A stretch of 44,335 bases of DNA from a virus. Shown here one piece after another: positions 1 to 42,120 of this stretch. Position 1 is the stretch's first letter, and each line of letters opens with the position of its first letter. The translations under genes were made by a program, and so were the position numbers. The stretch lies in IMG/VR virus record IMGVR_UViG_3300044822_000103, positions 1 through 44,335 of that record; one strand, written 5' to 3'. The notes under the pieces are model-generated. The model saw only the letters and a program-made list of their open reading frames with translations, did not search any database and was not told the DNA's origin.

Positions 1-352
1 CGTTGCAGTGGTCCCACTTGAGTAATTCCGCTTTGGCGGCAATGAAGTTCCGCGCGTTCACATAGCCGCGTAACGCGCTCGAGCGGTAATTCCCAATCCC
101 GAGATTGAAAATGAAATCCGTGAGCGCGGCTTGTGCGCCCGGGGCGAGCCCGGGACTGTAAACATTGAGCAGCGCATCCGCGCAGTTAAGATCGTGCATC
201 AGCTCCTCCTCCGCTTGCTCCGCCGTCCAGACGACGCCCGCGTACACATCCTTTCCCGTGTGGCCGTAACCGATCGTCCAGACGCCGGCGGGGCACAAAT
301 AGGCCACGAGCTTGCAGCCTTCAAACCGCCGCGCGAGATCCTCAGCAGTCAC
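1..352 (-). CDS. GH24 endolysin (lysozyme), copy 1, cut by window start
   Basis: Phage muramidase that cleaves peptidoglycan at lysis. It starts with GTG at 352 and overlaps the stop of the preceding 32-aa gene. The visible 117 codons carry the T4-type motif RRFEGCKL, then AYLCPAGVWTIGYGHTG, which fits the E-8aa-D/C-5aa-T catalytic pattern with Cys in the Asp position. There is no signal peptide, so it would need a holin. The C-terminal ~20 residues lie off the window. Because bases 1-127 equal 40610-40736, the missing end is probably the sequence at 40551-40609. It is a diverged paralogue or allele of the lysozyme at 40551-40961. Confidence 0.9.
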   Translation of the reverse strand, partial: MTAEDLARRFEGCKLVAYLCPAGVWTIGYGHTGKDVYAGVVWTAEQAEEELMHDLNCADALLNVYSPGLAPGAQAALTDFIFNLGIGNYRSSALRGYVNARNFIAAKAELLKWDHCN

Positions 353-447
353 AGCCCACCGCTCTTTTCCCACTCGCGAATAGCCCAGTAGACCCAGCCG
401 AGTGCGAGGGCGAGCATGGCGAGTCCGCCCAAGATCCAGTAGTTCAT
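349..447 (-). CDS. 32-aa single-span membrane protein in lysis cassette, copy 1
   Basis: Tiny protein: one hydrophobic helix (MNYWILGGLAMLALALGW) followed by a charged tail (REWEKSGGL). It overlaps the previous gene by ATGA (444-447), and the lysozyme GTG starts inside its stop codon (349-352). Its fixed place directly before the endolysin and its conservation with 40958-41056 suggest a role in lysis, such as a small holin or holin regulator. This is inference from context; no family is recognised. Confidence 0.7.
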   Translation of the reverse strand: MNYWILGGLAMLALALGWVYWAIREWEKSGGL

Positions 448-717: not shown

Positions 718-1029
718 TCACGGCGCAAATTTCGGGTGCAAGGTCGCGAGCTCGACCGCCAGCGTGTAGCCCGTGTGCGTCGCATCGGCCACCACGTCGG
801 CAAGCGTTGCGGCGGCTTCGGCGTCTAAGGTCTCAGTCGCATCCAACAGGTGCGGCATCGCCTGCCAATCGACATCGGCAGGCACGGGGATCGACTCATC
901 GCAAAAGACGACGGCGAGCCAGCCGACCCCGGCATCCCCGTAGGAACTCAAATCGAGAAAGTGATGCTCGCCCATCTCCTGCTGCACGATGGGCAAGTCC
1001 GCCACGGGGACCAAGTAGTAGCGTTTCAT
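718..1029 (-). CDS. Hypothetical protein after tail-tip gene
   Basis: 103 aa, start ATG at 1029, overlapping the tail-tip stop by ATGA. Soluble and acidic, beginning MKRYYLVPVADLPIVQQEMG, with no membrane span or catalytic motif that I recognise. It sits between the host-specificity protein and the lysis cassette, a place often held by small tail or lysis-timing proteins. No counterpart accompanies the second lysis cassette on the right of the window. Confidence 0.75.
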   Translation of the reverse strand: MKRYYLVPVADLPIVQQEMGEHHFLDLSSYGDAGVGWLAVVFCDESIPVPADVDWQAMPHLLDATETLDAEAAATLADVVADATHTGYTLAVELATLHPKFAP

Positions 1030-4000
1030 GGTTTGGCGTTGTGCGAGAGCGGCCCCAGGCGCGTCAGGAGGTAGAGGTGCGGGGCGGGAAGCTCGAGCTG
1101 CACTGCATTCGCGGTATCGAACACGGCTTTCAAGCACACGACTTCCAGGTGATTGCCGGCGCTTGCGAGGATGTCCAACAGATGCAGATCGGCCGCCCGC
1201 ACTTCCCGGCGGTCCGCGCGGATGAAGCGGTGATCGGGCGATACGACCAGAGTCTCGCCGTTGTGCAATTCGACACTCACCCAGGCGCTTTGTGGGCGGT
1301 GCGCGAGGCGCAGGATCGGCGCGCTCGCGGTGGCGCTCGTGTAGAGATGGTCCCCGACCCGCAAATCCCCGGCCTTCACGAGCCCCTGAGGGGTTTCGAT
1401 GAGCAGGAGTTCATGCGGACAACTCAAGCCGCCACCCCCGCCGCCGCCGGATCCCGACGTCGTGGTGGCGACCTGGAAGCCGTTCAACGGGATATTTCCT
1501 TGCGCGTAGGCAATCGCCGCGGCGGAGGCCTTGCCCGCCGCCGGATAGCACATCGCCGGCGACCCTGACCCGCCGCTCGTCACCCACGCCACCGCGAGCG
1601 TCGATCCTTCCGCGGCATACGGATAGACCTTGTAGGTGGTCCCCGTGGAGAGGCCCGTGATCGCCTTGCTGCCCGATGCAATCGAGCTCACCGTGCCATC
1701 CGCACGGTAGAGATTCATGGCGGGCCAGGTGATCGTGATCGTGGTGGTGGTCGAGGTATAGGTGAAGGGCTGGTCGGGTACGCTCAGCGGGGTGGATCCT
1801 TTGGCTGCGACTTGACCGCCCGAGGGGTCCACCGCCTTTTGGCCGATTTGCGGATTGTCGATAATGGGAATCGTCGCCGAGGGTCCGAACTCCAAGGAAT
1901 TGCACCCCGCCCCCACGTCGTGCAGGAGAATGTCAGCGTAGAGCGTCAAGCCCGAAACGGCTACCGTGCGCAGCACCGTGCCACTCTTTAAGTAGGTGAG
2001 CGTCGCGCCGTCATAGGTAATGGCGAAGACATCGGTGCTGGAATAGCTCCCGTACGACGAGATAGCCGTGCCGCTCTCGTAAATGCCTACGGTTCCGCCG
2101 TTGCAATAGATCGCATAATTGAGCGCCATGTACCCAGGCGTTGCGGGAATGGCAGTCACCAACGACCCCATTAAGAGGTCCAAGTTGTTCGTCTTGAATA
2201 CCAAGTGACAGGTCGGGAACCCGGAGATGCTGTACACATCGGAATCCCACGCAGTTGCCCCGCCCGGTGGCTTGGTGGCGCTCGCGTTCGCCACCGTGGC
2301 CGTGCCGCGCGCGATATAGAGCACCGGCGTCGCCGTGCCGTAGGGGCCGAACTTCAGGTTATTGGCGGCGGCCTGGAACGTATTGAACGAGGAATCTAAA
2401 TACAGCGTCTGGTTCGCCGCCGCCGTCTGCTGATAGATCACCGTGCCGTTCTGCAGATAGCGCACGAAGGATCCGTCATAGGTGATCGCCAAATCATCGC
2501 CCGCGGCATAAGTGCCCAACGTCGCAATCAGGGTTCCATTGTTGTAGACCACAAGCCCCGTACCAGGCAGGCATTCGAGCGCGTAGTCGAGCGTCGTGTA
2601 ACTGCTCGAAGTGGCCGGGTCATGATTGAGCGACATCATGAAGGTGCTCGAGGTGTTATCCGCCGGCTGCCAGGAGACGAATGCGCCGTTGGTATAGGCT
2701 TGGAGCGAATTGACCGTGCTGTCCCAAGCGGTCGTGTTCGTGCTTTTGAAGACATTGTTGCCGACGACCGTCACACCCGATCCCACGAGCGATACGGGCG
2801 ATGGCATTAGCTGCCCGGCGTTGTTCGATGCGAGGACGTGCGAATAGGCGGTGCAGGCGGCGAGCGATTGATACGCTCCACCGTAGACATTGAAGCTCGC
2901 GAACTTGAAATACATCGTCTGGCCGATCATGCCGGGGTCGTAGGGCACCCGGAATATCCCCGCATCGATGCGCGCGAACTGCGCGCCCGAGAGATGTGCC
3001 GCGGGGCTCGAGCCATAGAGCCCGCGCCGCAGGGTCGTCAGGTTGTAGGTACCGGTGCCGGTGAGGGTCGCGGTCTGGTACGCCATGATCTCGCCATCGA
3101 CGTAGAGGAGCGTACGGAGGTTCGTGTAATCGGCGGTGGACCCTGAGACGAGCTGCAGCGAAGTGGTCGCGGCATTGGTGAGTGCCACTGACAAGGTATC
3201 GGTCGTATCAGGATCGGGATTGCTCGGAAGGTTCGCGGTCAACGTGCCGTAGCGAGAGGCTCCATGCACCGCGCCTGCATAGATGTAGGACACGTTATCG
3301 AGCGACATGTAGACATCGCCCCCGCCCCACGATCCTGCAGCGCCTTGATCGACCGCGACCCAGATCTCGTGTCCGCCGTTCGCGCTCACGAGCGCCGCGG
3401 GAGCCGCGAAGATCAACGGCGTGCCGACCGAGGGCGGAACCACCGCATAATTCGCTGCGTACCCCTGGCTCGCCTGCCAGTTGTATACCGGGGCTGAAGC
3501 CGTCCCGACCAGCATGTCCTCGGCGGTGATGGTCAGAAGATCGTTCTCATCGTCATCGACTTCGGTGATGCGCACGAGCTTATTCGTGAGCCCTAATACC
3601 GAATCGGTGATCGAGACTAAATCCATCGGTTCCAACAGGCAGTAATCCGCGCGGATGGAAAACGTGAACGTGTTCCGGATATAGAGCTGGCGCTGCAAGA
3701 TGAGCTGCGCGACTTGTCTCGCCACACTCCCGGTCGTGATCTGGTGAAAGGTCAAGGTCGCCCCGGTACGCACCCCGTTCAAGGCGATGTCTTGGTCGTC
3801 CTTCGCCTGGGCGATGTCGGTGTTGTACGCATTCGCGCGATTCAAATATTCCAGATGCACCGTGTTGAACGTGTCCGCCAACGCGGCTCGATCGACGATC
3901 ACCGGATCAGACCCCGCACTTGCGGTGCTCGAGAGCATGAAGTCATCGTCGGTGAAGGAATAAAGCGGAGTCAGGTTTGGCGTGTAGGTGCGGCCATTGC

Positions 4001-4787
4001 CGGTGACGCTCGCATCGGCGTAGGGGACGATGTTCAACGTTCCCGCGGAAACAAAGGCGTTGGAATTGGTGATCTGCAGCGTCTCTTTGATGAAATCGAC
4101 CGCCGCCCGCTGAGTCGATTCGTACGGGCTGATAAAAAAGCCCATCGCGATGCAGTAGCTTTGATAGGTGAGAACGCCCGTTCCCTGGATGACCCCAAGA
4201 CCTGAGAAGTTCGCGCCGTGATTCGCATCCGTGCAGTAATCGGTGAGCATCGCGGACGGTTCCGCATCGTTGATGGTGCCGACGGTGTAGGGCGCGAGGC
4301 CGGTCAATTCAAAGGTGTAGTTGGGCAGCGCCGCAGAGCTCCCGAGTGCATAGTTCGGCACCCCGATATAGGCGGTGTGATCGTAGGGAACGGCTTGGCT
4401 CGGGTAATTGCCGGAGAGGTAGCTCCAGGTCGCCTGTCCGCCCGCGCCGGTGAAGAGCGTGCCGCCGATCGAGGAGAGGGTCACGAGCGCCTTGTCCTTC
4501 CAGATCTGCCCCATCGGGCCGCCCAACTGTCCTTCGATCAAGAGCCACACCATCGAGGCGGTGTAGGTGTAAGTGGTATTGGAGGATCCCCCGCCCCCGC
4601 CCTTGCCGCCGCTCTGACTCACCGTGTGTGCGGTCGCGACGAAATTGCCGTACCAGCCGAGCGTCATGGGCACGCGGTTCTGGCCGTACAGAAGCCCGAT
4701 GCAGTTGCCGTAGCTCGATTGGTTGATGTTGATCGCGTTCAAGCGGACGTCGGTCGTCGACTGGGATTTGCCGCCGCCGAGACTCAT
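1026..4787 (-). CDS. Tail-tip host-specificity protein with C-terminal Hint domain
   Basis: About 1253 aa. ATG at 4787 is chosen because it forms an ATGA overlap with the NlpC/P60 stop; the open frame runs further upstream only as antisense-quality sequence. The N-terminal ~600 residues resemble the phage tail-tip/GTA ORFG15 family (LRLNAI-type start, a region matching phage-tail_3 around YCLLEPMDLVSITDSVLG). Two related ~125-residue modules follow (about 688-817 and 847-970; both have WDS...AITYDG...YL.(N/S)GTV...L.FGP), probably carbohydrate-binding beta-sandwiches. An FN3-like segment (about 1004-1070) and a glycine linker lead to a Hint domain (1123-1253). It likely forms the distal tail and contacts the receptor. 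It is the last of a DUF2460-DUF2163-NlpC/P60-tip set. Confidence 0.88.
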   Translation of the reverse strand: MSLGGGKSQSTTDVRLNAININQSSYGNCIGLLYGQNRVPMTLGWYGNFVATAHTVSQSGGKGGGGGSSNTTYTYTASMVWLLIEGQLGGPMGQIWKDKALVTLSSIGGTLFTGAGGQATWSYLSGNYPSQAVPYDHTAYIGVPNYALGSSAALPNYTFELTGLAPYTVGTINDAEPSAMLTDYCTDANHGANFSGLGVIQGTGVLTYQSYCIAMGFFISPYESTQRAAVDFIKETLQITNSNAFVSAGTLNIVPYADASVTGNGRTYTPNLTPLYSFTDDDFMLSSTASAGSDPVIVDRAALADTFNTVHLEYLNRANAYNTDIAQAKDDQDIALNGVRTGATLTFHQITTGSVARQVAQLILQRQLYIRNTFTFSIRADYCLLEPMDLVSITDSVLGLTNKLVRITEVDDDENDLLTITAEDMLVGTASAPVYNWQASQGYAANYAVVPPSVGTPLIFAAPAALVSANGGHEIWVAVDQGAAGSWGGGDVYMSLDNVSYIYAGAVHGASRYGTLTANLPSNPDPDTTDTLSVALTNAATTSLQLVSGSTADYTNLRTLLYVDGEIMAYQTATLTGTGTYNLTTLRRGLYGSSPAAHLSGAQFARIDAGIFRVPYDPGMIGQTMYFKFASFNVYGGAYQSLAACTAYSHVLASNNAGQLMPSPVSLVGSGVTVVGNNVFKSTNTTAWDSTVNSLQAYTNGAFVSWQPADNTSSTFMMSLNHDPATSSSYTTLDYALECLPGTGLVVYNNGTLIATLGTYAAGDDLAITYDGSFVRYLQNGTVIYQQTAAANQTLYLDSSFNTFQAAANNLKFGPYGTATPVLYIARGTATVANASATKPPGGATAWDSDVYSISGFPTCHLVFKTNNLDLLMGSLVTAIPATPGYMALNYAIYCNGGTVGIYESGTAISSYGSYSSTDVFAITYDGATLTYLKSGTVLRTVAVSGLTLYADILLHDVGAGCNSLEFGPSATIPIIDNPQIGQKAVDPSGGQVAAKGSTPLSVPDQPFTYTSTTTTITITWPAMNLYRADGTVSSIASGSKAITGLSTGTTYKVYPYAAEGSTLAVAWVTSGGSGSPAMCYPAAGKASAAAIAYAQGNIPLNGFQVATTTSGSGGGGGGGLSCPHELLLIETPQGLVKAGDLRVGDHLYTSATASAPILRLAHRPQSAWVSVELHNGETLVVSPDHRFIRADRREVRAADLHLLDILASAGNHLEVVCLKAVFDTANAVQLELPAPHLYLLTRLGPLSHNAKP
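1029..1421 (-). other. Hint (intein/BIL-like) domain at C-terminus of tail-tip protein
   Basis: 131 residues following a run of glycines. Residue 1 is Cys (SCPHELLLIET). Next comes a block-A-like KAGDLRVGDHLYT, a block-B-like VVSPDHRF with the conserved His, and a terminal LYLLTRLGPLSHNAKP in which His-Asn is followed by Ala. Known Hint domains use Cys1 for the N-S acyl shift and the last Asn for cyclisation; the residue after Asn must be Cys/Ser/Thr for ligation. Ala there predicts cleavage without splicing, as in B-type bacterial intein-like domains. That outcome is inference. Confidence 0.85.
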
Positions 4788-5242
4788 ACCGCGCTCCAGT
4801 ACGAGTGGAAGCGATCTTCGAGGCTCCGCAGCTCGATCAACTCCACATTGCGTGAGGGGCGGTGGGCGTGAATGCCCATGAGCTCCCCGTGTCCGTGTGC
4901 ATCGGGGACTTGGACGATGATCACGCCGTGCGAGACGCAGCGACCGAAGTTGTACACCGCCACATCGCCCAGTTCCGGAACCTCGACCTGACGCGCGTGC
5001 TTCAAGACGCCCTGCAGGTAGATTTCCTCCGACTGGTGGAAATACCATTCGGGGGCGTAGTTGCCGGGGTCGAAATCCTGTGCGACTTTGCCAACGGCTT
5101 GAAAAACGCAGACCAGCAGCCACACGCAGTCGGTCCCGACACCCTTCACGTGCGCGTGAGGGTGATACGGAGTTCCGAGCCAGGAGAACGCTTCTGCGAC
5201 GATCGCGTTACGCAGTGCAATTCGGTTCGAATCACGGGACAT
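4784..5242 (-). CDS. NlpC/P60 family tail peptidoglycan hydrolase
   Basis: 152 aa. The NlpC/P60 cysteine peptidase core is visible: GTDCVWLL with Cys39, VSHGVIIV with His105, and IHAHR supplying the third polar residue near 125-127. In siphophages and gene transfer agents this gene sits between DUF2163 and the tip protein and acts as a tail-borne cell-wall peptidase during entry. It overlaps DUF2163 by 11 bp and the tip gene by ATGA, so translation is probably coupled. Confidence 0.93.
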   Translation of the reverse strand: MSRDSNRIALRNAIVAEAFSWLGTPYHPHAHVKGVGTDCVWLLVCVFQAVGKVAQDFDPGNYAPEWYFHQSEEIYLQGVLKHARQVEVPELGDVAVYNFGRCVSHGVIIVQVPDAHGHGELMGIHAHRPSRNVELIELRSLEDRFHSYWSAV

Positions 5243-6251
5243 AGCTGCCCCTGCCGCGTGCGCCAGAGAAGCCCGATCCGGCCCCTTGCCCGCCCTGCCC
5301 GCCCAAATCGCGCGTGTTCCCCTTCGGCGTGCCGCCGTCGTAGAGCGTTTCCGGTTGCGGCACGAACGGCGCGCCGCGGTAACGTCCGCCGGTGGTCGTC
5401 AAATTGGCGAATGCGGGTCCTACCGCCGTCGAGGTGTTCGAACAAGCCGCTTGGGTTTTGGGGCATCCGGGGAGGATGGTGAAGCTATCGCCCACCGACG
5501 GCAGTGCCGCCCACGGCTGCACGGCAGTGACCACGCCTCCCGCGAAGCTCGAGATCGCGTATTGTGAGCCGGACAGCACCCCGGAGGTGAACGTGATCAC
5601 CCCCAACGCAAAATAGCTCGCGACTTGCGTCAAGGCCGTGGAGCCCACGGTCAACGCGGTGACGTAGCCCGTAATCGTGCCGCTTTTCTGAAAGGTTGCC
5701 TTCGATAACCCGCACCCCGAATCGAACAGGGTATGCACGCAGCCCGCCTGCAGGATGTTCCGGGGCATCATCACGTTCAGCACCTGCACGGTGTCGTTCA
5801 GCGTGAGATCGACGGAGAAACGCCCCGCCTGCATGTCATCGACGATCCCGGCGAACCAGGGGACGATGCCGGGTGAGGTGTTCAACTGCGTGCCGGATGC
5901 GGGAAAGTTGAAAAAGCCCTTGGAGATGGTGACGATCCCGCCGTCAAAAGAACCGGCCCGGCAGGCGCTCAAGAATCCGGCGCCGCCGATGGTCACGGGA
6001 CCTGCCGGGTTATCGGCTTGCGGCTCGATGGTGAGATCCACCGATTGCACTTCCAAGCCCACCTTCTGGGTGAACGCCGAACGGACAATGGTGAGACCGG
6101 TGAGATAGGTATTTCCGCCGACGGTGATCGAGGTATCGGCATTGGTGAAATAGAACGTGCCGACTTTGGGGAGCGCGAATTGGTAGAATTCGAATTTCAA
6201 ATACTGCCCGCTCGCCAAAATGGCGAGGGTCGCCGCACTAGCGATTTTCAC
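5232..6251 (-). CDS. DUF2163 / BR0599-family minor tail protein
   Basis: 339 aa, GTG start at 6251 overlapping the DUF2460 stop (TAGTG). It contains the family's N-terminal beta-rich region (FYFTNADTSITVGGNTYLTG), a central CVHTLFDSGCGL and the Cys-rich C-terminal signature GCPKTQAACSN...GGRYRGAPFVPQPE. It is a distal tail component that joins the tape-measure end to the tip, equivalent to GTA ORFG13. The last ~30 residues are glycine-rich. Confidence 0.92.
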   Translation of the reverse strand: MKIASAATLAILASGQYLKFEFYQFALPKVGTFYFTNADTSITVGGNTYLTGLTIVRSAFTQKVGLEVQSVDLTIEPQADNPAGPVTIGGAGFLSACRAGSFDGGIVTISKGFFNFPASGTQLNTSPGIVPWFAGIVDDMQAGRFSVDLTLNDTVQVLNVMMPRNILQAGCVHTLFDSGCGLSKATFQKSGTITGYVTALTVGSTALTQVASYFALGVITFTSGVLSGSQYAISSFAGGVVTAVQPWAALPSVGDSFTILPGCPKTQAACSNTSTAVGPAFANLTTTGGRYRGAPFVPQPETLYDGGTPKGNTRDLGGQGGQGAGSGFSGARGRGSYVP

Positions 6252-6874
6252 TAGAGCTTGACCTGACGCAGTGAGATTTTTTTCGCTTCCCAGAAGTTCG
6301 ACATGAACTGGGTCAAGGTCAGGGCATCGTCATCGAAGCGGCAGCGATAGTAGAAAGAGCCGGACCAGGTAATCGCTGCACCCGAAGCCGGGGTGTAGCC
6401 GGTGAAGGTGACCAAGCCGGTCCCGCTGATCGAGTAGTTGGAGGCCGACACGAGCGTCCCGGCGCTGTAGATCAACGGCACGCCGTTTAAATTCTGGATG
6501 ATCTCCGCCCCTCCAGGACCCCCGGAGTTCTGATACGTCGCGGACAACTGAAATACCGACGTCGCCAACACGCCCGTGCCGGTGGCGAACTGCATCCCCG
6601 ACACGGTGTTGAAGACGGGGTCGTTATAGAGAAACGTATCCCACTTGCCGTTGCACGCCATGAAGAGGCCGAACAAGGCCTTCGCGTCACTCGGCACGAC
6701 GTAGTCGCGCAGGAGCTCGTACGCGAGCTCGAAGGTGAACACGGGATAGAGCTGATAGGCGATGCGCGATTCTTTCGCGGACAAGGCCGGTTGCACGCCC
6801 GTATTGAAGGCGACACCGCGCGTCGAATTCCAGGTGAGTCCCGGCAGGTTCGCGGGGTAGATGAGGTTACCCAT
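6251..6874 (-). CDS. DUF2460 distal tail protein
   Basis: 207 aa. It begins MGNLIYPANLPGLTWNSTRG and has the DUF2460 pattern of small beta-rich tail hub proteins (GTA ORFG12; distal-tail-like). The segment KALFGLFMACNGKWDTFLYN corresponds to the conserved family core. It overlaps the tape-measure stop by 8 bp. The position after the tape measure supports a baseplate hub or distal tail role. Confidence 0.9.
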   Translation of the reverse strand: MGNLIYPANLPGLTWNSTRGVAFNTGVQPALSAKESRIAYQLYPVFTFELAYELLRDYVVPSDAKALFGLFMACNGKWDTFLYNDPVFNTVSGMQFATGTGVLATSVFQLSATYQNSGGPGGAEIIQNLNGVPLIYSAGTLVSASNYSISGTGLVTFTGYTPASGAAITWSGSFYYRCRFDDDALTLTQFMSNFWEAKKISLRQVKL

Positions 6875-9407
6875 TCATGAACCGTCCCTGTAATTTCCTC
6901 AAGGCTGCAGAGACCGCAGAGCCGTGGTTGTTGATGGCTTTGGCAAAGCTCTGTGCGTCGATCGCGTGCACGGTGAGCTGCAACCCGCCGCCACCCCCAC
7001 CCCCACGGGACGCCATGTCGCGCACGGCGTTCGAGAGGCCTTTCGGTAACACCATTTCCTCTTCATGCAGTTGGGTCACGGGATTGATGCCGGTCGGGAT
7101 GCTGTAGCCGCCCGCGGCCGAAGCAACTGCGGCGTAGGACATGGTGTCGGCGTAAGCTAGAGCGGCCGCTGCAGGGGCCAATTCGGGGCCGACATAGGGA
7201 ATTGCAGCCGTCGAGGCAAACGCCCCTGCAGCGGCTTGAGCCGCCAACGTGCCGATGATCGCAACGCCCGACGTTTTCGAGGAGACGATCTGCATCAGGG
7301 AGGTTTCGAGATACTGCGCGGCCATGTTCGAGATCATGGTGATGATCGAATTGCCGACGTCCTGAAAGAGACCCTTGACCAAACCGGCCACCGATGTCGT
7401 GCCTTTCAGAAAGCCTTGAATGGTCGATGAGAAGCCGGAGCGCATGTCGGAGAACAAGGTGTTCCAGGTCTTCAACTGATCGGTCTCTGATTTGTTGACG
7501 ATCTTCTGCACGTCGGCCGCGTGCTTTTGCTCGAGCAGCAATTCTTGGTCTTTGAGCTTTTGCTGCTGGGCGAGGTCCTGGCCGGCGAGCTTTAATTTAT
7601 CCTCGAGCGCCTGTCGCTCGATTTGATATTTCTGATTCTCGAGGGCGATCTCGCCGGCCAATTCTTGCTGCTGAGTGATCTTGTTCGTCGCGAGCTCTTG
7701 CTCGAGCGCGGTTTTCTTGGCTTCGATCTCGCCGAGCTGCAGCGCCTCGACGGTCTTTTCGTATTCTTGTTCCTCTTTGATGCCGTCGGCATTGCCTTTG
7801 TCTTGGATCTTCTGAAGCGCGAGCTGGTGGGTTTGCGCTAAGACCAATTCCTGATCGCGGATCTTCTGCTGACCCAGCACGTCGAACTGCATGAGCTTCA
7901 GCTTCTGCTCGAGCGCGCGTTCCTCGATCGCGTATTTCTGGTTCTCGAGCTCGGCTTCGCCCGCAAGTTCCTGGGCGTGGGAGATTTTCCCCGCGGCGGC
8001 GGCTTCCGTGAGGGCTTCGCGCTTCGCGTTCAGCTCCCCTTCCGCTAGAGTTTGGACGGTTTTCTGGTATTCCTCCTCGCCCTTGATGTATTGGTCGTGG
8101 GCTTTTTTGGCGTCGGCCAGGAGGATCTTCTCGATATCCTCGCGGAGCTTCTTGTCTGCGTCGGTCGCCCCCTGGGTCTGCGCGAGTTTGGCCTGCCAGA
8201 ACGCTTGATCGGCGGCTAAGTCCTTTTGGTCCCAGTCGCCGGCGGCTTGGGCTTGTTCCTGGCGCTCTTTCTTGTACTGCTCGAGGACGTCGCCGCCCTT
8301 GCCCGGTACGTTCTCGCCGACTTTGGGGGGTGGTAAAGGCGTTTGGCTGGCGAAGAGATTGGTGATCTTTTTGAGGCCATGTTCGGCGTCATCGCTCATC
8401 TGGTCCATGGACGTCGACCAATCGCGCGCAATCGTCGTGCCGATCGACTTCAAGCGCGCCGCGGCGGTCGACATGTGGCCCTGCATCGCCTCCCCGACCG
8501 CTTCGAACAGGAGTTCGACCGTGTCGGCGAACATGCGAAAGACCATGATCAGCGCATCGACGCCGATCTCTAAGTCCGCGACCACGATCCAAAACACCGC
8601 AACGAACCCGCCGAGTACTCCTTTCAACACGGTGATCGCGTAGGGGACGATCACGGCGAACATTTCCGCCAATTGCGAGAGCACCGGCAAGAGCGCATCG
8701 CCCACGGCTTTGCCCAAGCCGTGCAGTCCCGCCATGAGACCGCCCATGGCCTTGACGTTCTCTTTGTAGTCCTCGACGTTCTCCTCACCGACGATGAGCC
8801 CCAAGTTCTCCGCCGTCTCGCCGGCCTCCGCCATCCCTTCTTTGGTGAGCTTCAAGAACGAGGCATTCGCATCCGCGGCCCGACCGAAGGCGATCTGCGC
8901 CGCTTCGTTCCGGTCGAACCCTTCGGTATAGGTGTTCACCGTCTCGATCGCGTTCCACATGATCTGCTCGCCGTTGAGCAGATGACCATTGGCATCGCGG
9001 GTGACGATGCCTAAATCATTCATCCCTTTCTCGTTCGTCTTCAGCTGCCGCGTCAATCCTCGAGAAGCCGAGGCAAAGTCATCTGCAGACCCCCCGACAT
9101 CTTCGATGGCCACGCCATAGATCGAGGCCTGCGTTGCGGAAATGCCGAAACTCCGTCCGAGATTGATCGCTTCGCGCTCGACGTCCTTGGTGACCTCGAT
9201 GACCTTCTCGAAGGCCTCGACCGCCAAGAACACTTCCATCAATTCCGTGAAGTTGTCCTTCAAAAGCGTGAACGGCGCGAGGAGCGACTCGAGCGACTCG
9301 GTCATCTCGGCAACGCCTTCCGCCACCCCTGCAGCGGCGGCTTGCATGGCAGCTAAAGCACTGCCGGCCTCGCCCGTGATCAGGACTTTGGTTTCGGTGT
9401 CAGACAC
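6867..9407 (-). CDS. Tail tape measure protein
   Basis: 846 aa, GTG start at 9407 (MSDTETKVLITGEAGS). An Ala-rich N-terminus is followed by a hydrophobic segment at about 240-300 (FAVIVPYAITVLKGVLGGFV) and long charged helices. Two tandem ~95-residue coiled-coil repeats share ELAGE-(A/I)-(E/A)LENQKY-(A/Q)IE. A second hydrophobic region precedes the glycine-rich C-terminus. It sets tail length and is ejected with DNA. It lies directly after the frameshifting chaperone genes, the canonical siphophage order. Confidence 0.93.
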   Translation of the reverse strand: MSDTETKVLITGEAGSALAAMQAAAAGVAEGVAEMTESLESLLAPFTLLKDNFTELMEVFLAVEAFEKVIEVTKDVEREAINLGRSFGISATQASIYGVAIEDVGGSADDFASASRGLTRQLKTNEKGMNDLGIVTRDANGHLLNGEQIMWNAIETVNTYTEGFDRNEAAQIAFGRAADANASFLKLTKEGMAEAGETAENLGLIVGEENVEDYKENVKAMGGLMAGLHGLGKAVGDALLPVLSQLAEMFAVIVPYAITVLKGVLGGFVAVFWIVVADLEIGVDALIMVFRMFADTVELLFEAVGEAMQGHMSTAAARLKSIGTTIARDWSTSMDQMSDDAEHGLKKITNLFASQTPLPPPKVGENVPGKGGDVLEQYKKERQEQAQAAGDWDQKDLAADQAFWQAKLAQTQGATDADKKLREDIEKILLADAKKAHDQYIKGEEEYQKTVQTLAEGELNAKREALTEAAAAGKISHAQELAGEAELENQKYAIEERALEQKLKLMQFDVLGQQKIRDQELVLAQTHQLALQKIQDKGNADGIKEEQEYEKTVEALQLGEIEAKKTALEQELATNKITQQQELAGEIALENQKYQIERQALEDKLKLAGQDLAQQQKLKDQELLLEQKHAADVQKIVNKSETDQLKTWNTLFSDMRSGFSSTIQGFLKGTTSVAGLVKGLFQDVGNSIITMISNMAAQYLETSLMQIVSSKTSGVAIIGTLAAQAAAGAFASTAAIPYVGPELAPAAAALAYADTMSYAAVASAAGGYSIPTGINPVTQLHEEEMVLPKGLSNAVRDMASRGGGGGGGLQLTVHAIDAQSFAKAINNHGSAVSAALRKLQGRFMNG

Positions 9408-15299: not shown

Positions 15300-16064
15300 T
15301 CAATCGTCGCCTGAGATGTCGCTCAGTACGGGTAATACATCGCACCGGCAATTCGGGTGCGCCGGCGGATCGCCGACATCGGGAAAATCATCATCCAAGT
15401 CGACTTCCATCCCATTGAGCGCCTCGCACTCATCGCAACATCCTTCACCGGTGATCCAACGCTTGGAAGCCACCTGGCCTGACACACGGTAGGCTTCAAG
15501 GTTGCCGCCAATATCGGCTTTAGCGGTTTCGGTTCGGGCGATCGTTTCTGCTCGAGCATCCGAGAACGCGTACATCTCGGAGAGGTTGTCGGCGAGCTCG
15601 TCATTGCTCATGCCGGTCTCGATCGCATCGGCAATATCGTCTTTCACCATGTCGCGCGTGGTATCACTGATGACCCACTCGGCGTTCGGATTCGGCACCC
15701 TCTCGCCGTCTTTCATCTTCATGCCGATCATTTCGGCGGCCCGGTCGTTCGCGTAATCGAGTGCGTACTGATTCAGCTGGTCGGTGATCGACTCATCGGC
15801 CACGAAGCCGATCTGAGCGAGAGCTTTTGCAGCGCCCTCGTTCGTGATGCGCTCGAGCAGCGCGCTCGACTCATCGGCCAGGAGCCCCAACTTGCCTTGA
15901 GCGATCTCGCCCAGGACCTCATCAATGATCGCCTGATCGTCCTTGCGCAGCGTCTTCAGGCGCTTGCCGATGGCGGTCTGCCAGCTCGAGAACTGCTTTT
16001 TCAGTAGCGATGCAAACTGGTCTCGGCTCTTGTCCGTGTAGCTGCGATCAAGGGCGCGGATCTG
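15300..16064 (-). CDS. MuF-like minor head protein, probably made as portal fusion
   Basis: The frame encodes about 254 aa from the slippery run at 16064-16072 to TGA at 15300. The C-terminal part has the MuF signature: ARTETAKADIGGNLEAYR, GEGCCDECEALNG, PPAHPNCRCDVLPV. The homologous-looking N-terminal part (RALDRSYTDKSRDQFASLL) has no ATG/GTG/TTG; the first candidate is a TTG at 15890 without a ribosome-binding site. The frame is -1 relative to the portal and joins it at AAAAAAAAC. MuF proteins sit inside the capsid near the portal, so a portal fusion would be structurally sensible. Confidence 0.85.
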   Translation of the reverse strand, partial: QIRALDRSYTDKSRDQFASLLKKQFSSWQTAIGKRLKTLRKDDQAIIDEVLGEIAQGKLGLLADESSALLERITNEGAAKALAQIGFVADESITDQLNQYALDYANDRAAEMIGMKMKDGERVPNPNAEWVISDTTRDMVKDDIADAIETGMSNDELADNLSEMYAFSDARAETIARTETAKADIGGNLEAYRVSGQVASKRWITGEGCCDECEALNGMEVDLDDDFPDVGDPPAHPNCRCDVLPVLSDISGDD

Positions 16065-17488
16065 TTTTTTTTAGTGACGGCGTTGCGCCCGCCGATGGGT
16101 GCCTTGCCGCTGCCCGCTTTTCCGGGCGGCGCATTGCCACTCGGCGCACCCTTCGGCGGCGGATTGCCCTGTGCATCCAACATCGGCGGCGGCGGCGGAT
16201 TCAGCAATTCTTGCTGTTCCGGCGTTAACGGTTCTCGACCCATGTCTTGCCGAACTTCATCCGGCGTCAACACTTTGCCGGCGAGATAGATTTGGGCCAC
16301 CTGGGCGGCAATGAGGGGATCGTTGTCCGCCTCTTTGACCCAGTCGAAACACAAATCGGGGGCTTGGAAATACCGCTGGATGACATCGGTCATCGTGTCC
16401 TTGACCCAAGCCATCAAGGGAACCAAGCCTTCGTCCTTCGCCGCATCGGCTGACGTATCAGAGGTCGCGCGATTCTGGGTCTTGATGAACGGGGTCGGGG
16501 CGATCGAGAAGGCGAAGCACACGATGCGCGCGAGCCATTCGTCGTACTCGTCCTTCAACTGCCCCGCTTTGGTCTCCAGGATCTTGCCGCCGCCGGGGAT
16601 GAACTTGGCTTTGCGTCTCTGCGCGGTGTTGCCCTCGAGCATCGCGTCGAACCAGTTCTGGATCTGCTTGATCTGATCGGGCTGCCAGGTTTCAGGCACC
16701 TGAATCAGCATGTCGGGGACGTTGCCTTCGGTGTACGCCTGCAGCTGAAAGGTCTGGCGTCTCAGAGCAATGTTCACCGTCATGATGATCTGCTCGACGG
16801 GTGAGTAGCCGAAGATCTTGTGCGTGCGCGGATTCTGCGGCGCGTAGATCAGCTCGTCCCTCGAATAATCGACCGCCGGCATACCCTTGATGATCTGCTG
16901 GTAAGCAGGATCCGGCGGGAGTGGCGTCCGTCCGCTCGAATCAATAACCCGCTTGATGGTGGATCCGTCGACCAGCTCCAAGCCATACAATCCCCCGCCG
17001 CGGTTCATGCGCGGGTACATGGTCGGGGCATCGATGACGAGTAAGTCCTCGAGCAGCATCCGGAGCCAGATGTTCCAGTTGTGTTCCTGGTCGGGCTTTT
17101 TCAAAAACTGTTGGATCGCGAGACAGCGCGCATCCGAGGTGCCCTTCGGGTCCACCGGCGTCACGGTCCAATCTTGGGCGCAGATCTGATCCTTGCGCGT
17201 CTGGATCACGAGTCTGAGGACGTCATACCCATCGGCCAACGCCCGCATCTGCGCAAAGCTCACCGCCTCCGTTGCACGGGGCGTGTACTGGATGTTGGTG
17301 TTGACGTCGAAATCAAATGCCCGACCGACCGCTTGGGTCTGCGCTTGCGGGGCCAATGGTTGACCTGGCCCGAACCAGTCGGAGGGCTGGACACCGGACA
17401 GCGTATAGCGCACGCCCTGCACCAGTCGGGCAATGACGCCCGGCTTGATCGCGGTTTGGGTCGCGTCGGATTTTAAGTTGCCGGCCAT
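16001..17488 (-). CDS. Portal protein
   Basis: 495 aa in the zero frame. Portal features: FAQMRALADGYDVLRLVIQT, then YGLELVDGSTIKRVID, DELIYAPQNPRTHKIFGYSP, and a C-terminal region with a proline-rich stretch (NPPPPPMLDAQGNPPP). It forms the dodecameric DNA gate that TerL docks on. The last 21 residues (from NRSAPLIAATRT) look out of character and lie beyond an A8 C run. At that run a -1 shift would continue into the MuF-like frame. ATG at 17488 overlaps the previous gene. Confidence 0.93.
   Translation of the reverse strand: MAGNLKSDATQTAIKPGVIARLVQGVRYTLSGVQPSDWFGPGQPLAPQAQTQAVGRAFDFDVNTNIQYTPRATEAVSFAQMRALADGYDVLRLVIQTRKDQICAQDWTVTPVDPKGTSDARCLAIQQFLKKPDQEHNWNIWLRMLLEDLLVIDAPTMYPRMNRGGGLYGLELVDGSTIKRVIDSSGRTPLPPDPAYQQIIKGMPAVDYSRDELIYAPQNPRTHKIFGYSPVEQIIMTVNIALRRQTFQLQAYTEGNVPDMLIQVPETWQPDQIKQIQNWFDAMLEGNTAQRRKAKFIPGGGKILETKAGQLKDEYDEWLARIVCFAFSIAPTPFIKTQNRATSDTSADAAKDEGLVPLMAWVKDTMTDVIQRYFQAPDLCFDWVKEADNDPLIAAQVAQIYLAGKVLTPDEVRQDMGREPLTPEQQELLNPPPPPMLDAQGNPPPKGAPSGNAPPGKAGSGKAPIGGRNAVTKKNRSAPLIAATRTRAETSLHRY
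16064..16072 (-). other. Slippery run A8C at portal/MuF junction
   Basis: The coding strand reads ACT AAA AAA AAC AGA in the portal frame. It contains the classic heptamer A-AAA-AAC. Slipping back one base gives AAA AAA CAG and enters the MuF frame, which is closed by TAA just upstream. A homopolymer sequencing error fusing two frames would look the same. Confidence 0.7.
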
Positions 17489-17875: not shown

Positions 17876-18853
17876 TCAGAAGGTCGTGGTGACGATCATG
17901 TAAGCCGCACCGCCCCCACCGCCGATACCCGCCGCGCCCGTCGAGAGCGCGGAACCACCGCCGCCGCCACCACTGCCGCGTGCGCCCGCGCCGCCCGCGC
18001 CGCCCGTGAACGTCGAGATAGCCGAGCCACCGCCCGCGCCGCCGTAGGCAAAGCCGATGGCTGAGAGCGCGGCAGCACTTGCGCCCGCGCCACCATTGCC
18101 GCCAGATCCAGCAGCGCCGGCGGCGACTGCGGTAGCCACGGCGACATAGGACGCGCTACCGCCGCCCGCTGTCGTACTGGGCGTCGCCGTGACTCCACCG
18201 CCGCTCGCGCCGCCTTGCGGACCCGCACTGAGAATGCCCGCACCACCGCCAGCCCCGGCACCTCCGTTCACGCCGCCGCCTGACCCCGGCCCGATCAGGG
18301 CTAAGGACACGTTCACGCCCGATGCCCCTGATGCGCCCGTTGCCCCGAATGCGCTCCCGCCCGCGCCTCCCGCAGTCCCCGTCGCTTGACTGCCTGCGCT
18401 CCGGGTGCTCGCACCACCACCACCGCCCGACGCCGCATTGGACACACCCGGCGCTCCACCGCCGCCGCCATAGGCGGTCAGGAGACTGCCGAACGTCGCA
18501 CTGCCGCCATTGCTGCCCGCCGCGCCCGCAGCGCCACCCGCGCCCCCGCCTGGGATTGTCACTGTGACGGAAGACGGGACGTTGGCTGCGACAAAGGTTT
18601 GATCGACCAGGACCGCAGGACCGCCACCGCCACCGCCCGAACTCGACGTACCGGATGCAGTTGTGATGCCACCACCGCCACCGCCGCCCGAGCCGTTGCC
18701 CTGCACGCGGATCAACTGCGCGCCGGTCGGTTGCGTATAGGTTCCCGACGATGGGAACGCCTGGATGTTGACCTTGAGGCCATACACGCCCAAGTCCGTG
18801 AGGCGCACCGCGTCGTTCGGATTGACAGGGGTTACACCCGCTTGCTGTCTCAT
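17876..18853 (-). CDS. Glycine-rich fiber/adhesin-like protein
   Basis: 325 aa. A ~50-residue N-terminal domain (VNPNDAVRLTDLGVYGLKVN) is followed by long glycine tracts broken by short hydrophobic strands (AVLVDQTFVAANVPSSVTVT). The motif QLIRVQGNGSGGGGGGG resembles the start of polyglycine-rich domains in phage adhesins, which pack as polyglycine-II sandwiches. It likely forms or tips a fiber. It follows the collagen-like gene in the same transcript. AAGGTGAG precedes the ATG. Confidence 0.8.
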   Translation of the reverse strand: MRQQAGVTPVNPNDAVRLTDLGVYGLKVNIQAFPSSGTYTQPTGAQLIRVQGNGSGGGGGGGITTASGTSSSGGGGGGPAVLVDQTFVAANVPSSVTVTIPGGGAGGAAGAAGSNGGSATFGSLLTAYGGGGGAPGVSNAASGGGGGASTRSAGSQATGTAGGAGGSAFGATGASGASGVNVSLALIGPGSGGGVNGGAGAGGGAGILSAGPQGGASGGGVTATPSTTAGGGSASYVAVATAVAAGAAGSGGNGGAGASAAALSAIGFAYGGAGGGSAISTFTGGAGGAGARGSGGGGGGSALSTGAAGIGGGGGAAYMIVTTTF

Positions 18854-18884
18854 CGGATGCTCACCTTCATATCCCTGTGCTGTG

Positions 18885-20738
18885 TCATCCGATCACCACG
18901 CCGTTCATCTGATTCAAGGTGGGCGCCGTCTGAAAAATGACCGTCACCGCGTTCAACCCGTGGGTCACATCGCAATCGGGTTCGACTCCGGTTGCGGCGT
19001 ACCAAGCATCGAACGAGTAAAAGAGTGAATTGATGTTGTGGGTCAGCGTGAACGTCGTCGTCACCCCGTCCCCGAAGATGAAGGGATACTTCGCCGTGAG
19101 CGCCACGCCGTTCGCGTAGACCGCACCCGCGACGTTGACCGTGCCCGCGCCTTTATCCCCGCCCGTGGGCGAACCGACTTGCACGCCGGTGCCCGAGAAC
19201 TGCGCGCCACCCGCGCTGACCAGGAGCGCCATGCTGCCTGCGCCCGCGCTGTTGGCTGCCACGATGGCGGCATAGAGCGGGTTGGAACTGGTGTTGCTCG
19301 CTTTGAGCGCAATCCCGTTCGAGGTCGCGTCGATCGCGTCCCCGGCTGAATTGATCATGGAGAGCGACGTGCCGTTTATGACGGCGGGCAAATCCGCCGT
19401 GACCAGGGCGCGAAGGGCTGAGACGGCCGTACCGCCGCTGACGGCCGTCGCCAAAACTTGATTCGCGGCGCCTGAAGGTGCTGGACCGGCAGGGCCAGTG
19501 GCGCCTGTCGCACCCGCTGCACCGTTTGTCCCGGCTGCACCTGTGGCACCGGCCGCTCCCGTGGCGCCTGTTGCGCCCGTAGCGCCAGTCGGTATCCCAA
19601 AATTGAATGTCGCCGCCGAGCTGGTGCCTGAGTTGCCTACCGTGGGTGACGCCCCGGCGGCGAGAGGGGTTGCCGTGCCGGCGGCGATGGTGGCCGCGGC
19701 GCCCGCAGGCCCCGTTGCGCCTGTAGAGCCGGTGGCTCCCGCCGCACCATTTGTGCCGTTCGTGCCGGCCGCTCCCGTGGCGCCTGTTGCGCCCGTAGCG
19801 CCAGTCGGTATACCGAAATTGAAGACGGCCGCCGCGGACGTGCCCGAGTTGCCGACGGTCGGCGTGGATCCTGTCGGAAGTGCGCTGGCGGTACCGGCGG
19901 CGATGGTCGCTGCCGCTCCAGCTGCGCCCGTGGCTCCAGCCGCACCCGCGGTCCCGGTTGTCCCGGTCGGTCCTTGCGGACCTGTGGGACCGGTGAGGCC
20001 AATGGGTCCTTGAGGCCCTGTGGCGCCCGCAGCGCCGTTCGTACCCGCGGCGCCGGTGAGGCCGGTAGGTCCTGTCGGACCTGTCGCGCCTGTAGCACCT
20101 GTCGGACCTGCTGGCCCCGTCAATCCGATCGGGCCCTGAGGTCCTGTGGCTCCAGTAGCGCCCGTGGCGCCAGTCAAACCGATGGGCCCGGTGGCTCCAG
20201 CGGGTCCGGTTGCGCCGGTCAGGCCCGTTGGCCCTTGGGGTCCCGCAGCGCCCGTGAGTCCAATAGCACCTTGCGGGCCCGTCGCCCCGGTCAAGCCCGT
20301 GGGTCCCGTCGGTCCCGCCGAACCGGTGAGCCCCGTCGCACCGATCGGCCCCGCAGGTCCTATCGAGCCGGTGAGCCCCGTGGGTCCGGTAGGCCCTTGC
20401 GCGCCGGTCAATCCAATAGCGCCAGAAGTTCCCGTCGGACCGGTCGCACCCGTAGGACCTATCGGTCCCTGCGCCCCTTGCGCTCCGGTGTTGCCCGACA
20501 ATCCCGTGGGACCGATGGGCCCTTGAGGTCCGGTCGCACCCGTGGCACCTTGAGCGCCTGAAGGCCCTTGAGGACCGATCGCGCCCACCCCTGCCGGCCC
20601 TTGAAGTCCGGTCGGGCCTTCAGGACCTTGCGGCCCCTCGAGCCCCGATTGCACGGTGATGGCCACCGCGGGCGGTTGGGTCACAATGACGTTCACCGGC
20701 GGCGGTAGCGCCACCGTGACCGTCACCTCATCGATCAC
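18885..20738 (-). CDS. Collagen-like fiber protein
   Basis: 617 aa. The N-terminus ([19 protein letters not shown]) leads into well over one hundred Gly-X-Y triplets ([13 protein letters not shown] type), which form a collagen triple helix. The triplets are interrupted by repeated ~45-residue modules with TVGNSGTS(A/S)[10 protein letters not shown]. The C-terminal ~150 residues are non-collagenous ([20 protein letters not shown]) and probably the trimeric head. The protein is a virion fiber; whether on head or tail is open because it lies between TerL and portal. Confidence 0.9.
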
Positions 20739-21118
20739 GGCTTGGTGACTTCGCGAAACACCGAAATGACACCCTGGAGCGGGCTCCAGATGATGCCGGT
20801 CTGCGTGTTCTTGTCCTCCATATCCCAGATGTACTGGGAGAGCGGATCCAAGAGCGTGGGTCCGCAGGTCACCAGCGCGGTCAAACTCGCCGCCATGCTC
20901 ATCGCGGTGACACCGCTCGTGGGTACGCTCGAGGCAAAGCTGAAAACGCCCGCCGGCGAGATATCGCCGGGGAGCTTTCGCATCTGTGCCGAGAGCGCAC
21001 TGTATGTCAGGTCGTAGGGTGAGCCATCGGCATTCGTGAACGTCAACGACAAGAGCAGGTCCGCGCCCTGGCGCATGGCGAAGTCGAACTTCGCCCCGAC
21101 ATTCGAAATGCGCGTCAT
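20735..21118 (-). CDS. Hypothetical protein preceding collagen-like fiber
   Basis: 127 aa. Beta-rich, with [20 protein letters not shown] followed by [14 protein letters not shown], a layout seen in small phage proteins next to receptor-binding or head-fiber genes (reminiscent of BppU-type N-terminal domains). It overlaps the collagen-like gene by ATGA and TerL by ATGG-type coupling, so it is probably the fiber's attachment partner. Assignment by context only. Confidence 0.7.
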
Positions 21119-22383
21119 GGTGTCTCTTTGGCTTTCAACGCCGCAAGTTCATCCGTGGCGAAATCCACGAACCCGAAGCCTGAACGGCGAATCAGGGGCG
21201 CGAGTGCATAGCGCACCGCGTCCCAGATGTGATTGTGTTTATCGACGATGTCGGTCAGGACATCTCCGGTCAGCCGATCGGTTTTGAAGCTGTAGAGCTT
21301 CGCTTCCTCGATCGCATGGGCGCAGCGCGTGTGGATGACCACGCACTCAAACTGGCGGATGAACGCGATGCCATCCTCCACACTGCCCGGCCACTTCTCG
21401 GCTGCCGTTATGCGGGGATAGCCGTGGCGCTGCAGATAGCTGATCGTCTCCGGGCGGGAGTTGTCCCCACGGATCACATGGAGCTTTGCCCCGGCGATCT
21501 GGTCAAAGAGCTGCGGCACCGTATCGGTATCGCGGCCGATCGCCCACGCTTCCTGCTCAATGTATAGACAACGTCCATACACCCAGCACTTCACAAGCGT
21601 CGTGGGGTCCTGGCTGAAGCCCCAGTCCGCTCCAAAATAAGGTCCGTCCCAGTTACCCGGTACGAAATCCTCGATCCGGTACTTGCCCTTGAAGATCTGC
21701 GCCGCTGAGTTCGTGCGGAACTTGCCCTCCCAGACGTGCTGGTAGGCTTCCGGATCCACCCGGGCGAGATAGTCTTTCAGCCGGATCAATCGGTCCGAGA
21801 GCCACGGGTTATCGCGCCAGTTGGTCTCGATGATCCGGCTGTTCGGTACCGGATCGATCAGAAAGCGTTTTGACGTCGGGTCCGTGGCCAAGTCCGGGTT
21901 GAACCCGCACCAGATCTCCGACCCCGCCTTTCGAATCGTCGGTTCGACGATTTGCCAGCTGTTCTCGGTAACAGACTCGCCCTCCTCGATCCAGAGGATG
22001 TCGATGCCTTCGGTCGATTTGAACTTCCGCGGCTCGGTTTTGATGCCGGCGAAGAAGAATTCACTGCCGTTACTGGCAGTAATCGAGCGCTTGCCGATGT
22101 GAAAGTACGCATCGAGCCCCAGGCCCTCGATCTGGGCGCGCAAGGTCTGATGCACTGACTCATCGATTGAGGTCTGATACTCACGGGCACAGGCAATGCG
22201 CAGCTTTCGCTTGGCGGCCAGGAGTACTGCTGTTCGGGCAAAGCCCCAGGACTTCAGTCCGCCGCGGCCCCCGTGCATGACTTTGTAGTCAGACGGGATG
22301 TACTGACCTTGGGAATCAAAGAATAGATCACGAACCTTTGCTGCCAGAACTGGGGGTGCCAGAACCGGGTCCGCCATTGCCAA
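21115..22383 (-). CDS. terL: Terminase large subunit
   Basis: 422 aa. N-terminal ATPase: Walker A-like [10 protein letters not shown] (37-46), Walker [11 protein letters not shown] (127-136). C-terminal RNase H-like nuclease: [11 protein letters not shown] with its Asp, [10 protein letters not shown], and [13 protein letters not shown] carrying the last acidic residue. Matches the PBSX/XtmB-type large terminases. It packages DNA through the portal. It overlaps the TerS gene by 56 bp. Confidence 0.95.
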
Positions 22384-34897: not shown

Positions 34898-35146
34898 ATG
34901 GCTGAATACACGACGACCGACGACTACGCGCGCTCGTATTCGGACAGCGATGACTATGTGCGCCGGTATCTGGCGCTCGATGTGCTCAAGGCGCGCGCCC
35001 GCATCCGCGAGCTTGAGGCGGCGCTGGCTAAAGAGAAAGGTGGATGGGATGCGTTCTACAAACTGCGCAAGTCTGTGGGCGAGAACCGGTATCCCGGCAT
35101 GACTGCCGAAGTGACAACCCAGGACCGGGGAGCAGAGCATGAGTAG
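34898..35146 (+). CDS. Small helical protein with RIRELEAALA motif
   Basis: 82 aa. Acidic Tyr-rich N-terminus (DDYARSYSDSDDYVRRY), then helix RARIRELEAALAKEKG. A 29-bp segment (35000-35028) coding RIRELEAAL is identical in 35608-35943. Ends TTQDRGAEHE, again from the shared junction motif. Function unknown. Confidence 0.68.
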   Translation: MAEYTTTDDYARSYSDSDDYVRRYLALDVLKARARIRELEAALAKEKGGWDAFYKLRKSVGENRYPGMTAEVTTQDRGAEHE

Positions 35147-35615: not shown

Positions 35616-35943
35616 CTCTGAAGTGCGCCGGTTTGAGCTATCGGCCTGGAATGCCATCGTAGGGTTAGGCACTGGTGAGCGATTCGTCCGAGCATCCGAC
35701 TACGACGCCCTTGCCGCCGAGCTTGCCAGTCAAGTCGCATGGAAGGAGCGCTACATGCGCGAGGTCTTGGAGGCGGCCGAACGCATCCGCGAGCTTGAGG
35801 CGGCGCTGGCGAGAGCCAAGGAACTTGTCTACAGGCCGTTCCCAATGCCCTTGGTAATAGACACCTACACGACGTTTTACGTCGAGTGGTGCACCGACCG
35901 CGAACGTATTTTCGCAACTGTGGACCGGACAGGTGAGCCATGA
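35608..35943 (+). CDS. Hypothetical protein with DYDAL and RIRELEAALA motifs
   Basis: 111 aa. Pattern RFVRASDYDALAAELASQ then helix RIRELEAALARAKELV. The ASDYDAL motif recurs as ASAYDAL in the next gene, and the helix is shared with 34898-35146 at DNA level. Ends VDRTGEP. Function unknown. Confidence 0.68.
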   Translation: MGSSEVRRFELSAWNAIVGLGTGERFVRASDYDALAAELASQVAWKERYMREVLEAAERIRELEAALARAKELVYRPFPMPLVIDTYTTFYVEWCTDRERIFATVDRTGEP

Positions 35944-37824: not shown

Positions 37825-37892
37825 GGCGAGAGTGTGCCTTGGCAAGGCCGATTCTGGCGAGCGGTGGGCGCGTTCCAGCCGAGATCGATGGT

Positions 37893-37904
37893 ACCCCTTG
37901 GGGT
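37893..37904. repeat. Palindrome ACCCCTTGGGGT before xis
   Basis: 12-bp perfect palindrome in the 145-bp gap between the small-gene array and the excisionase. It could be a terminator element or a regulator site for xis/int. No other gene is convincing in 37825-37969. Confidence 0.45.
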
Positions 37905-37969
37905 GGGGAAGGCCCCCCGGGCTTATCCTCGCGCGGCATGGGGGCGGATGCGCCCTATGGGGTTTGCCG

Positions 37970-38260
37970 ATGAAATGGGTGACGATCAAGAAGGCCGCGG
38001 AGCTCTCCGGGTATACCGAGAAGGCGATCGAGGCGAAACGGGCGGACGGGGTGTGGCTCGAGGGCATTGTCTGGATCAAAGCCCCCGATGGCCGTATTCT
38101 CATTTCAACAGAGGGGATAGACCAATGGGCCGAGGGACGGGTGTGCGCGCCGCAAGCGCCTCATCGATTGCAATCAGCTTCGAGTACAAGGGCGTCCGCT
38201 GCCGCGAAAAGCTCAAGCTCCCGCCAAACCCCGCCAACCTCCGGTACGCCGCCGGATTGA
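37970..38260 (+). CDS. Excisionase (AlpA/Xis-like)
   Basis: 96 aa from ATG 37970. The first ~55 residues match phage excisionase/HTH_17-type DNA-binding: VTIKKAAELSGYTEKAIEAK, then GVWLEGIVWIKAPDGRILIS. It directs excision together with Int. The last ~44 residues overlap the integrase start in another frame and look non-conserved. Confidence 0.82.
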   Translation: MKWVTIKKAAELSGYTEKAIEAKRADGVWLEGIVWIKAPDGRILISTEGIDQWAEGRVCAPQAPHRLQSASSTRASAAAKSSSSRQTPPTSGTPPD

Positions 38261-39321
38261 AAGCGACCATCGAGCACGAGATCGCGGTGGGCAGCTTCGA
38301 CTACGCCAAGCATTTCCCGAAGAGCCGGCGCGCGAAAGTGCTCGCGAAAGTCCCGGCAACCGTCATCACGGTGGGCGAGCTGCTGACTGATTGGCTGCGC
38401 GACACCCGCGCAGAATTGGAGCCTGAGACTTACGCGGACTACGCCGAGTACGTTGAGAACACCTGGCGCCCGCTATTGGGCAAGCGCTTGCTTTCGGATC
38501 TGACCGCGGCCTGGGTCTACGAGTGGATCGGCAAGCAGAAGAGGAGCAAGAAGCGGATCTTGAATCTTCTGACCCCGCTTCGCCAAGCGGCCAAGTACGC
38601 GGTTAAGCCGCGCAAGTTCTTGACCGAGGATCCGATCGGGAAGCTCACGGTGAAGCGGCCGGCGGGTATTGACGAGAGCGACGTGCTGATCGATCCGTTC
38701 ACGGCGGAGGAGATCGAGGCGATTCTGCCGCACTTGGAGCCCGAGCTCGCCGCCATGTGTCAGTTCTGGGTGTGGACCGGACTTCGGGTGGGGGAGCTGA
38801 TCGCGCTCAAGTGGTCGGACATCGATTTCGAGCGCAACATCGCGCGCATCACCAAAGCCGCCCGCGGCAACCGGCGCAAGGCTCCGAAAACGAAAGCCGG
38901 GGTGCGCGAAGTGAAACTCCTCCCGCCCGCATTAGAAGCGCTCCAACGGGCGAAGCCCTTCACCCGCCTCCTGCATGCGGAGATCTTCCAAGATCCCGGC
39001 ACGCGCCCGATGGGGAACAACCATGCGCCAAAACGGGCGATTGCTCCGTGGGCGAACGATAAGCAGATTCGCGTGCGCTGGCAGGCGGCGTTGAAAGCCG
39101 CCGGCGTGCGCTACCGCTTCCCGCGCCAGCTGCGTCACACCTATGCGTCGTGGATGCTGAAGTTCCGCGAAGACCCCGCGTGGATCTCCGCGCAGATGGG
39201 ACACAGGAACGTCTCGGTCACGCTGACGACGTACGCCAAGTACATCCCGGCGATGAACCCGAACGCGGGGATGGGCGCGTACGCGGCGATCATGGCGGCG
39301 AAGAACAAGGGACACGATTAG
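38125..39321 (+). CDS. int: Tyrosine site-specific integrase
   Basis: 398 aa. N-terminal DUF3596/arm-binding region (SIAISFEYKGVRCREKLKLP, FDYAKHFPKS), a core-binding SAM-like domain, and the catalytic domain: TGLRVGELIALKW (first Arg about 219), RQLRHTYASWML (second Arg, with His of the usual HxxR replaced by Arg), GHRNVSVTLTTYAKY (His and nucleophile Tyr near 369). It overlaps xis and reads directly into the tmRNA-like attP, so this is the integrase for that site. Confidence 0.94.
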   Translation: MGRGTGVRAASASSIAISFEYKGVRCREKLKLPPNPANLRYAAGLKATIEHEIAVGSFDYAKHFPKSRRAKVLAKVPATVITVGELLTDWLRDTRAELEPETYADYAEYVENTWRPLLGKRLLSDLTAAWVYEWIGKQKRSKKRILNLLTPLRQAAKYAVKPRKFLTEDPIGKLTVKRPAGIDESDVLIDPFTAEEIEAILPHLEPELAAMCQFWVWTGLRVGELIALKWSDIDFERNIARITKAARGNRRKAPKTKAGVREVKLLPPALEALQRAKPFTRLLHAEIFQDPGTRPMGNNHAPKRAIAPWANDKQIRVRWQAALKAAGVRYRFPRQLRHTYASWMLKFREDPAWISAQMGHRNVSVTLTTYAKYIPAMNPNAGMGAYAAIMAAKNKGHD

Positions 39322-40961: not shown

Positions 40962-41056
40962 AGCCCACCGTTCCGTTCCCACTCCCGAATCGCCCAGTAG
41001 ACCCAGCCGAGTGCGATCGCGAGCATGGCCAACCCGCCCAAGATCCAATAGTTCAT
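40958..41056 (-). CDS. 32-aa single-span membrane protein in lysis cassette, copy 2
   Basis: MNYWILGGLAMLAIALGWVY then WAIREWERNGGL: close paralogue of 349-447. Overlaps the upstream gene (ATGA 41053-41056) and the lysozyme GTG. Likely lysis-related; function unproven. Confidence 0.7.
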   Translation of the reverse strand: MNYWILGGLAMLAIALGWVYWAIREWERNGGL

Positions 41057-42110: not shown

Positions 42111-42120
42111 CAAAGCCTCC

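Follow-up and report, generated by a model that had tools for sequence, protein, structure and literature searches.

A 127-base repeat in an IMG/VR record points to an assembly fork between a probably complete circular siphovirus and a fragment of a second phage

Main

The record analysed here is an IMG/VR metagenome contig, classed as 'linear', and the window covers all of its 44,335 bases. Its first 127 bases recur exactly at an internal position. This repeat is almost certainly an assembly artefact, not a biological feature, and we consider it likely that it is a fork in a k = 127 de Bruijn graph, which joined one phage (A) to a different phage (B) during short-read metagenome assembly. The consequence is mainly one of quality: the record is best split into a probably complete circular phage of 40.6 kb (1–40609) and a piece of 3.6 kb that belongs to another phage. 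The 'linear' label would thus hide a complete genome, and the record should be reclassed. A simple test of whether the first k bases of a contig recur inside it would reveal other such IMG/VR records. Beyond quality, the identical lysozyme stretch in the two phages suggests that, within one sample, a siphovirus and a contractile-tail phage have recently exchanged lysis genes.

The usual largest k of metaSPAdes is 127. JGI assembles 2x151 reads with metaSPAdes (PMC10734482); a literature search for the k values of the JGI assembly found no printed list. Benchmarks have shown that co-existing viruses with common regions yield chimeric contigs, amounting to <5% of contigs of at least 10 kb (PMC5610896).

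Results

Bases 1–127 are identical to 40610–40736, and an exact-match scan of the window finds this word twice, at 1 and at 40610, and nowhere else. Exactly as the preliminary description had reported, the first mismatch between the copies is at 128/40737; the 128-base word occurs only once. No other exact direct repeat in the window is as long, the next ones measuring 47, 29 and 25 bases. Its left edge is not comparable between the copies, given that nothing in the contig precedes copy 1. A direct terminal repeat was considered and rejected: copy 2 ends 3599 bases before the contig end, and the end sequence is unique. Among 80-odd fetched loci, mostly partial contigs, no other exact direct repeat of at least 50 bases with one copy at the contig start was found.

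To the right of the repeat the two copies stay homologous up to 703/41321, with 82% identity over the whole blastn match. The diverged stretches (128–703 in copy A, 40737–41321 in copy B) cover the rest of the lysozyme gene and the next gene, and past them the two have nothing in common. In blocks of 60 bases, the identity is 60/60 and 60/60, followed by 45–53/60 through most of the remainder. At 82% identity, 127 consecutive matches have a probability of ~1e-11, and so abrupt a change in identity requires a cause, which we infer to be a recombinant stretch common to both phages and cut at k by the assembler. Lysozyme copy A (2–373, minus strand; phrog_7 endolysin, E=2e-34) is cut by the contig start, and copy B (40551–41087, minus strand; PF00959) is complete. 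Mismatches in the lysozyme frame number 8, 3 and 36 at codon positions 1, 2 and 3 (36 of 47 at third positions), a bias which indicates that both are real, selected genes and not sequencing errors.

Joining 40609 to 1 adds 59 bases (40551–40609) to the cut lysozyme A and gives an in-frame protein of 143 aa, which ends at copy B's own stop. A gene that stays intact across this join is what an assembly overlap of k = 127 leaves behind, as is a repeat of 127 bases with one copy at a contig end, base 1 included. The closure also leaves 2.3 kb between the 3' end of the central tail protein gene J and the integrase, which lies beyond J on the opposite strand. The gene set of 1–40609 comprises J (1026–5123, minus strand; Phage-tail_3 PF13550, Rcc01698_C PF23666), tail assembly, DUF2460, tape measure (6867–9407, minus strand; phrog_2854), neck, protease, portal (16001–17488, minus strand; phrog_2662, PF04860), terminase (large subunit 21115–22383, minus strand; PF04466, PF17288), primase and tyrosine integrase (37834–39321, plus strand; phrog_1, PF00589). 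Hence, a J-type tail tip, tape measure, terminase, portal and integrase lie on one replicon, as in a temperate siphovirus. From the repeat, the gene set, the in-frame closure and the topology of relatives, 1–40609 is probably the complete circular (or circularly permuted) genome of a temperate siphovirus, phage A, in agreement with the earlier proposal of a circle of about 40.6 kb that completes the lysozyme.

The topology of J and integrase after closure recurs in six related phages, in four of them within one contig and in two only if the contigs are read as circles. One of the four (L003, contig 3300005529_000582) has a lysozyme after J and, 7 kb further along, a serine integrase encoded on the opposite strand; in the other three (G022, G027 and G029), the opposite strand encodes a tyrosine integrase 4.0–8.9 kb after J. 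In the remaining two (G013 and G019) the integrase is at the far contig end, which is 9.2 and 5.3 kb after J if the contigs are circles. Temperate siphoviruses with an Rcc01698-like tail tip of the gene-transfer-agent type (for example the IMG/VR contigs behind L003, L004, L047 and L060) share with phage A the order tape measure, DUF2460, tail assembly, J, the integrase beyond on the opposite strand and, in some, a lysozyme after J. In contrast to phage A, most carry lysis genes of another kind, and the proteins are ~30–70% identical.

Beyond 41321 the contig encodes, all on the minus strand, a tail fibre (41349–42260; many tail-fibre PHROGs), a DUF2612 baseplate-region protein with an N-terminal PASTA domain (42121–43029; PF11041/phrog_587), an unassigned protein of the tail region (43155–44129; 34% match in L084) and a baseplate-J-like fragment cut by the contig end (44071–44334; phrog_6, E=0.006). 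The last of these is 45–57% identical to the last part of the baseplate-J genes in L005, L006 and L008–L010. DUF2612 relatives are encoded at 14 IMG/VR loci, and the six closest have baseplate J, DUF2612 and fibre in this order. The evidence for phage B spans 3.0 kb, over which baseplate-J fragment, DUF2612 protein and fibre match contigs of the same order, and 40737–44335 would be an arm of a different, myovirus-like contractile-tail phage. In the myovirus-type contig L006 this order continues with a 144-aa lysozyme, which shares 60% identity with copy B, and with a spanin-like gene. The latter adjoins the L006 lysozyme, weakly matches an Rz-like spanin family and is 33% identical to a putative spanin of the window at 39697–40170 (minus strand). 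The lysozymes of the siphovirus relatives are distant.

The two tail types were not found together outside this record. PF11041 (DUF2612) was detected in 10/10 tested relatives of the second phage and 0/15 siphovirus relatives, and PF13550 (J) in 9/9 tested siphovirus relatives and 0/10 relatives of the second phage. Both families are found in this record, and the positive controls worked. In 25 relatives PF13550 and PF11041 are therefore mutually exclusive, and the record combines parts of genomes not seen together elsewhere, as a chimera does. That a tail type never accompanying this J lies past 41321 supports the view, put forward in the preliminary description, that the sequence after 40736 is an alternative path. 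Composition does not separate the two parts: the tetranucleotide distance of the right arm is ordinary (rank 105/151).

Under a graph fork, phages A and B would have had an identical stretch of lysozyme DNA in the sample, ending at 40736, and two edges would leave the vertex at the 127-mer, one returning to base 1, where A itself starts, and the other entering B from 40737 onwards. The assembler would have opened the contig on A's edge at this vertex (copy 1, 1–127), circled A and met the vertex again at the presumed fork point (copy 2, 40610–40736), from where the path would have run into B until its end at 44335. An exact recurrence of k bases from base 1 is expected under such a fork and a coincidence under any biological reading. 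The suggestion of a k-mer junction is strengthened by the recurrence of exactly 127 bases from base 1, with the qualification that an identity of exactly k sets only the right edge of the common stretch, whose left start may precede 40610 widely. This left limit may lie far to the left because the lysozyme and spanin genes of A and B may stem from one exchange.

Two known kinds of assembly product resemble what is seen here. Circular contigs from SPAdes or metaSPAdes carry a k-mer end overlap, likewise a sequence of k bases that is repeated exactly and stands once at the first base, and joining it closes a plausible phage genome, but here the second copy lies 3.6 kb inside the contig and not at its other end. 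The cause would be that the path continued into a second genome, and tests for end repeats consequently assign the record to the linear class. Chimeric virome contigs also join two phages at a common stretch (PMC5610896), although in the present record the completeness of the first phage, whose sequence comes back to where it began, makes the seam visible.

A variant of the fork, which we consider unlikely, has the stretch common to both phages, or owned by B, start well before 40610, for instance ahead of the spanin-like gene at 39697. In that case, the switch between A and B would lie upstream, part of 37.8–40.6 kb would perhaps not be A's, and the 40.6-kb circle may be partly wrong. The adjoining lysozyme (60%) and spanin-like gene (33%) of L006, the nearest fetched relatives of lysozyme B and of the gene at 39697, come from a myovirus-type contig and speak for this variant, as do the distant lysozymes of the siphovirus relatives. 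However, 40551–40609 is the sole incoming sequence in the record for the vertex at base 1 and completes A's lysozyme in frame, and relatives as a rule have an opposite-strand integrase near the 3' end of J.

The contig could also depict a real arrangement. Homologous prophages side by side do occur, and a siphovirus and a myovirus prophage with similar lysozymes, adjacent in one bacterial chromosome and broken by the assembler at the first copy, would fit the integrase of the siphovirus and the like composition of both parts. We regard this as very unlikely, given that it needs exactly 127 identical bases between lysozymes that are otherwise ~80% alike and a left flank of copy 1 that differs and has been dropped, and that one phage gives way to the other along the contig, the annotated parts of which contain no recognised host genes. 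That one real phage genome holds two lysis cassettes and two tail types, through duplication or as a hybrid, is hardly credible: the two tail types never occur together in 25 relatives with working positive controls, the contig end truncates the baseplate gene, and a duplication leaves unexplained why the contig starts exactly at the first base of the repeat. In its favour, each of the two lysozymes has an intact reading frame and shows selection. A hybrid phage of natural origin, or a pair of tandem prophages, in which one molecule bears two lysis cassettes and two tail types, is given very little weight beside the graph fork.

Neither phage was found intact elsewhere in IMG/VR, GenBank phages or bacterial and archaeal genomes. 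Exact scans with the 127-base core and the right end of the contig, from which records close to this one may have been withheld, hit no other IMG/VR contig, and phage B was not seen alone; a DNA search of GenBank phages with 1–24000 as the query gave no match, and no prophage relatives were confirmed in bacterial or archaeal genomes by lysozyme B or by J alignment.

Other features of the two phages

In phage A, the tail-tip genes at 1026–5123, 5232–6251 and 6251–6874 (minus strand) match gene-transfer-agent-like families (Rcc01698_C, DUF2460 and phiJL001 Gp84/BR0599), hinting at a tail of alphaproteobacterial type. These genes have ~35 relatives in IMG/VR and no confirmed match in bacterial or archaeal genomes. 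Between portal and terminase, 17876–20738 (minus strand) encodes a collagen-like tail fibre and a second fibre or assembly gene, and within the window this region has the highest G+C (0.69) and deviates most in tetranucleotide usage; it also contains an internal repeat of 47 bp (19549–19595 = 19765–19811). A 29-bp exact direct repeat (35000–35028 and 35782–35810) lies in a region of small genes and is possibly a regulatory site or a short gene duplication.

In phage B, the PASTA domain of the 42121–43029 protein (PF03793, E=2e-8) covers residues 38–98. The DUF2612 homologue of L006 (209 aa) is without a PASTA domain by Pfam, and the frame in L005 (223 aa) is too short for a counterpart. A similar segment is encoded just upstream of the DUF2612 gene, in the C-terminal region of the 43155–44129 protein on the same strand, and at the start of the DUF2612 gene itself, in the N-terminus of the 42121–43029 protein. 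The paired segments read VVQRLPLTNLRPQ...TGNPP upstream of the DUF2612 gene and LVQRLPLSALRPQ...TGNPF at its start, and may represent a small duplication or a docking segment common to adjacent tail genes.
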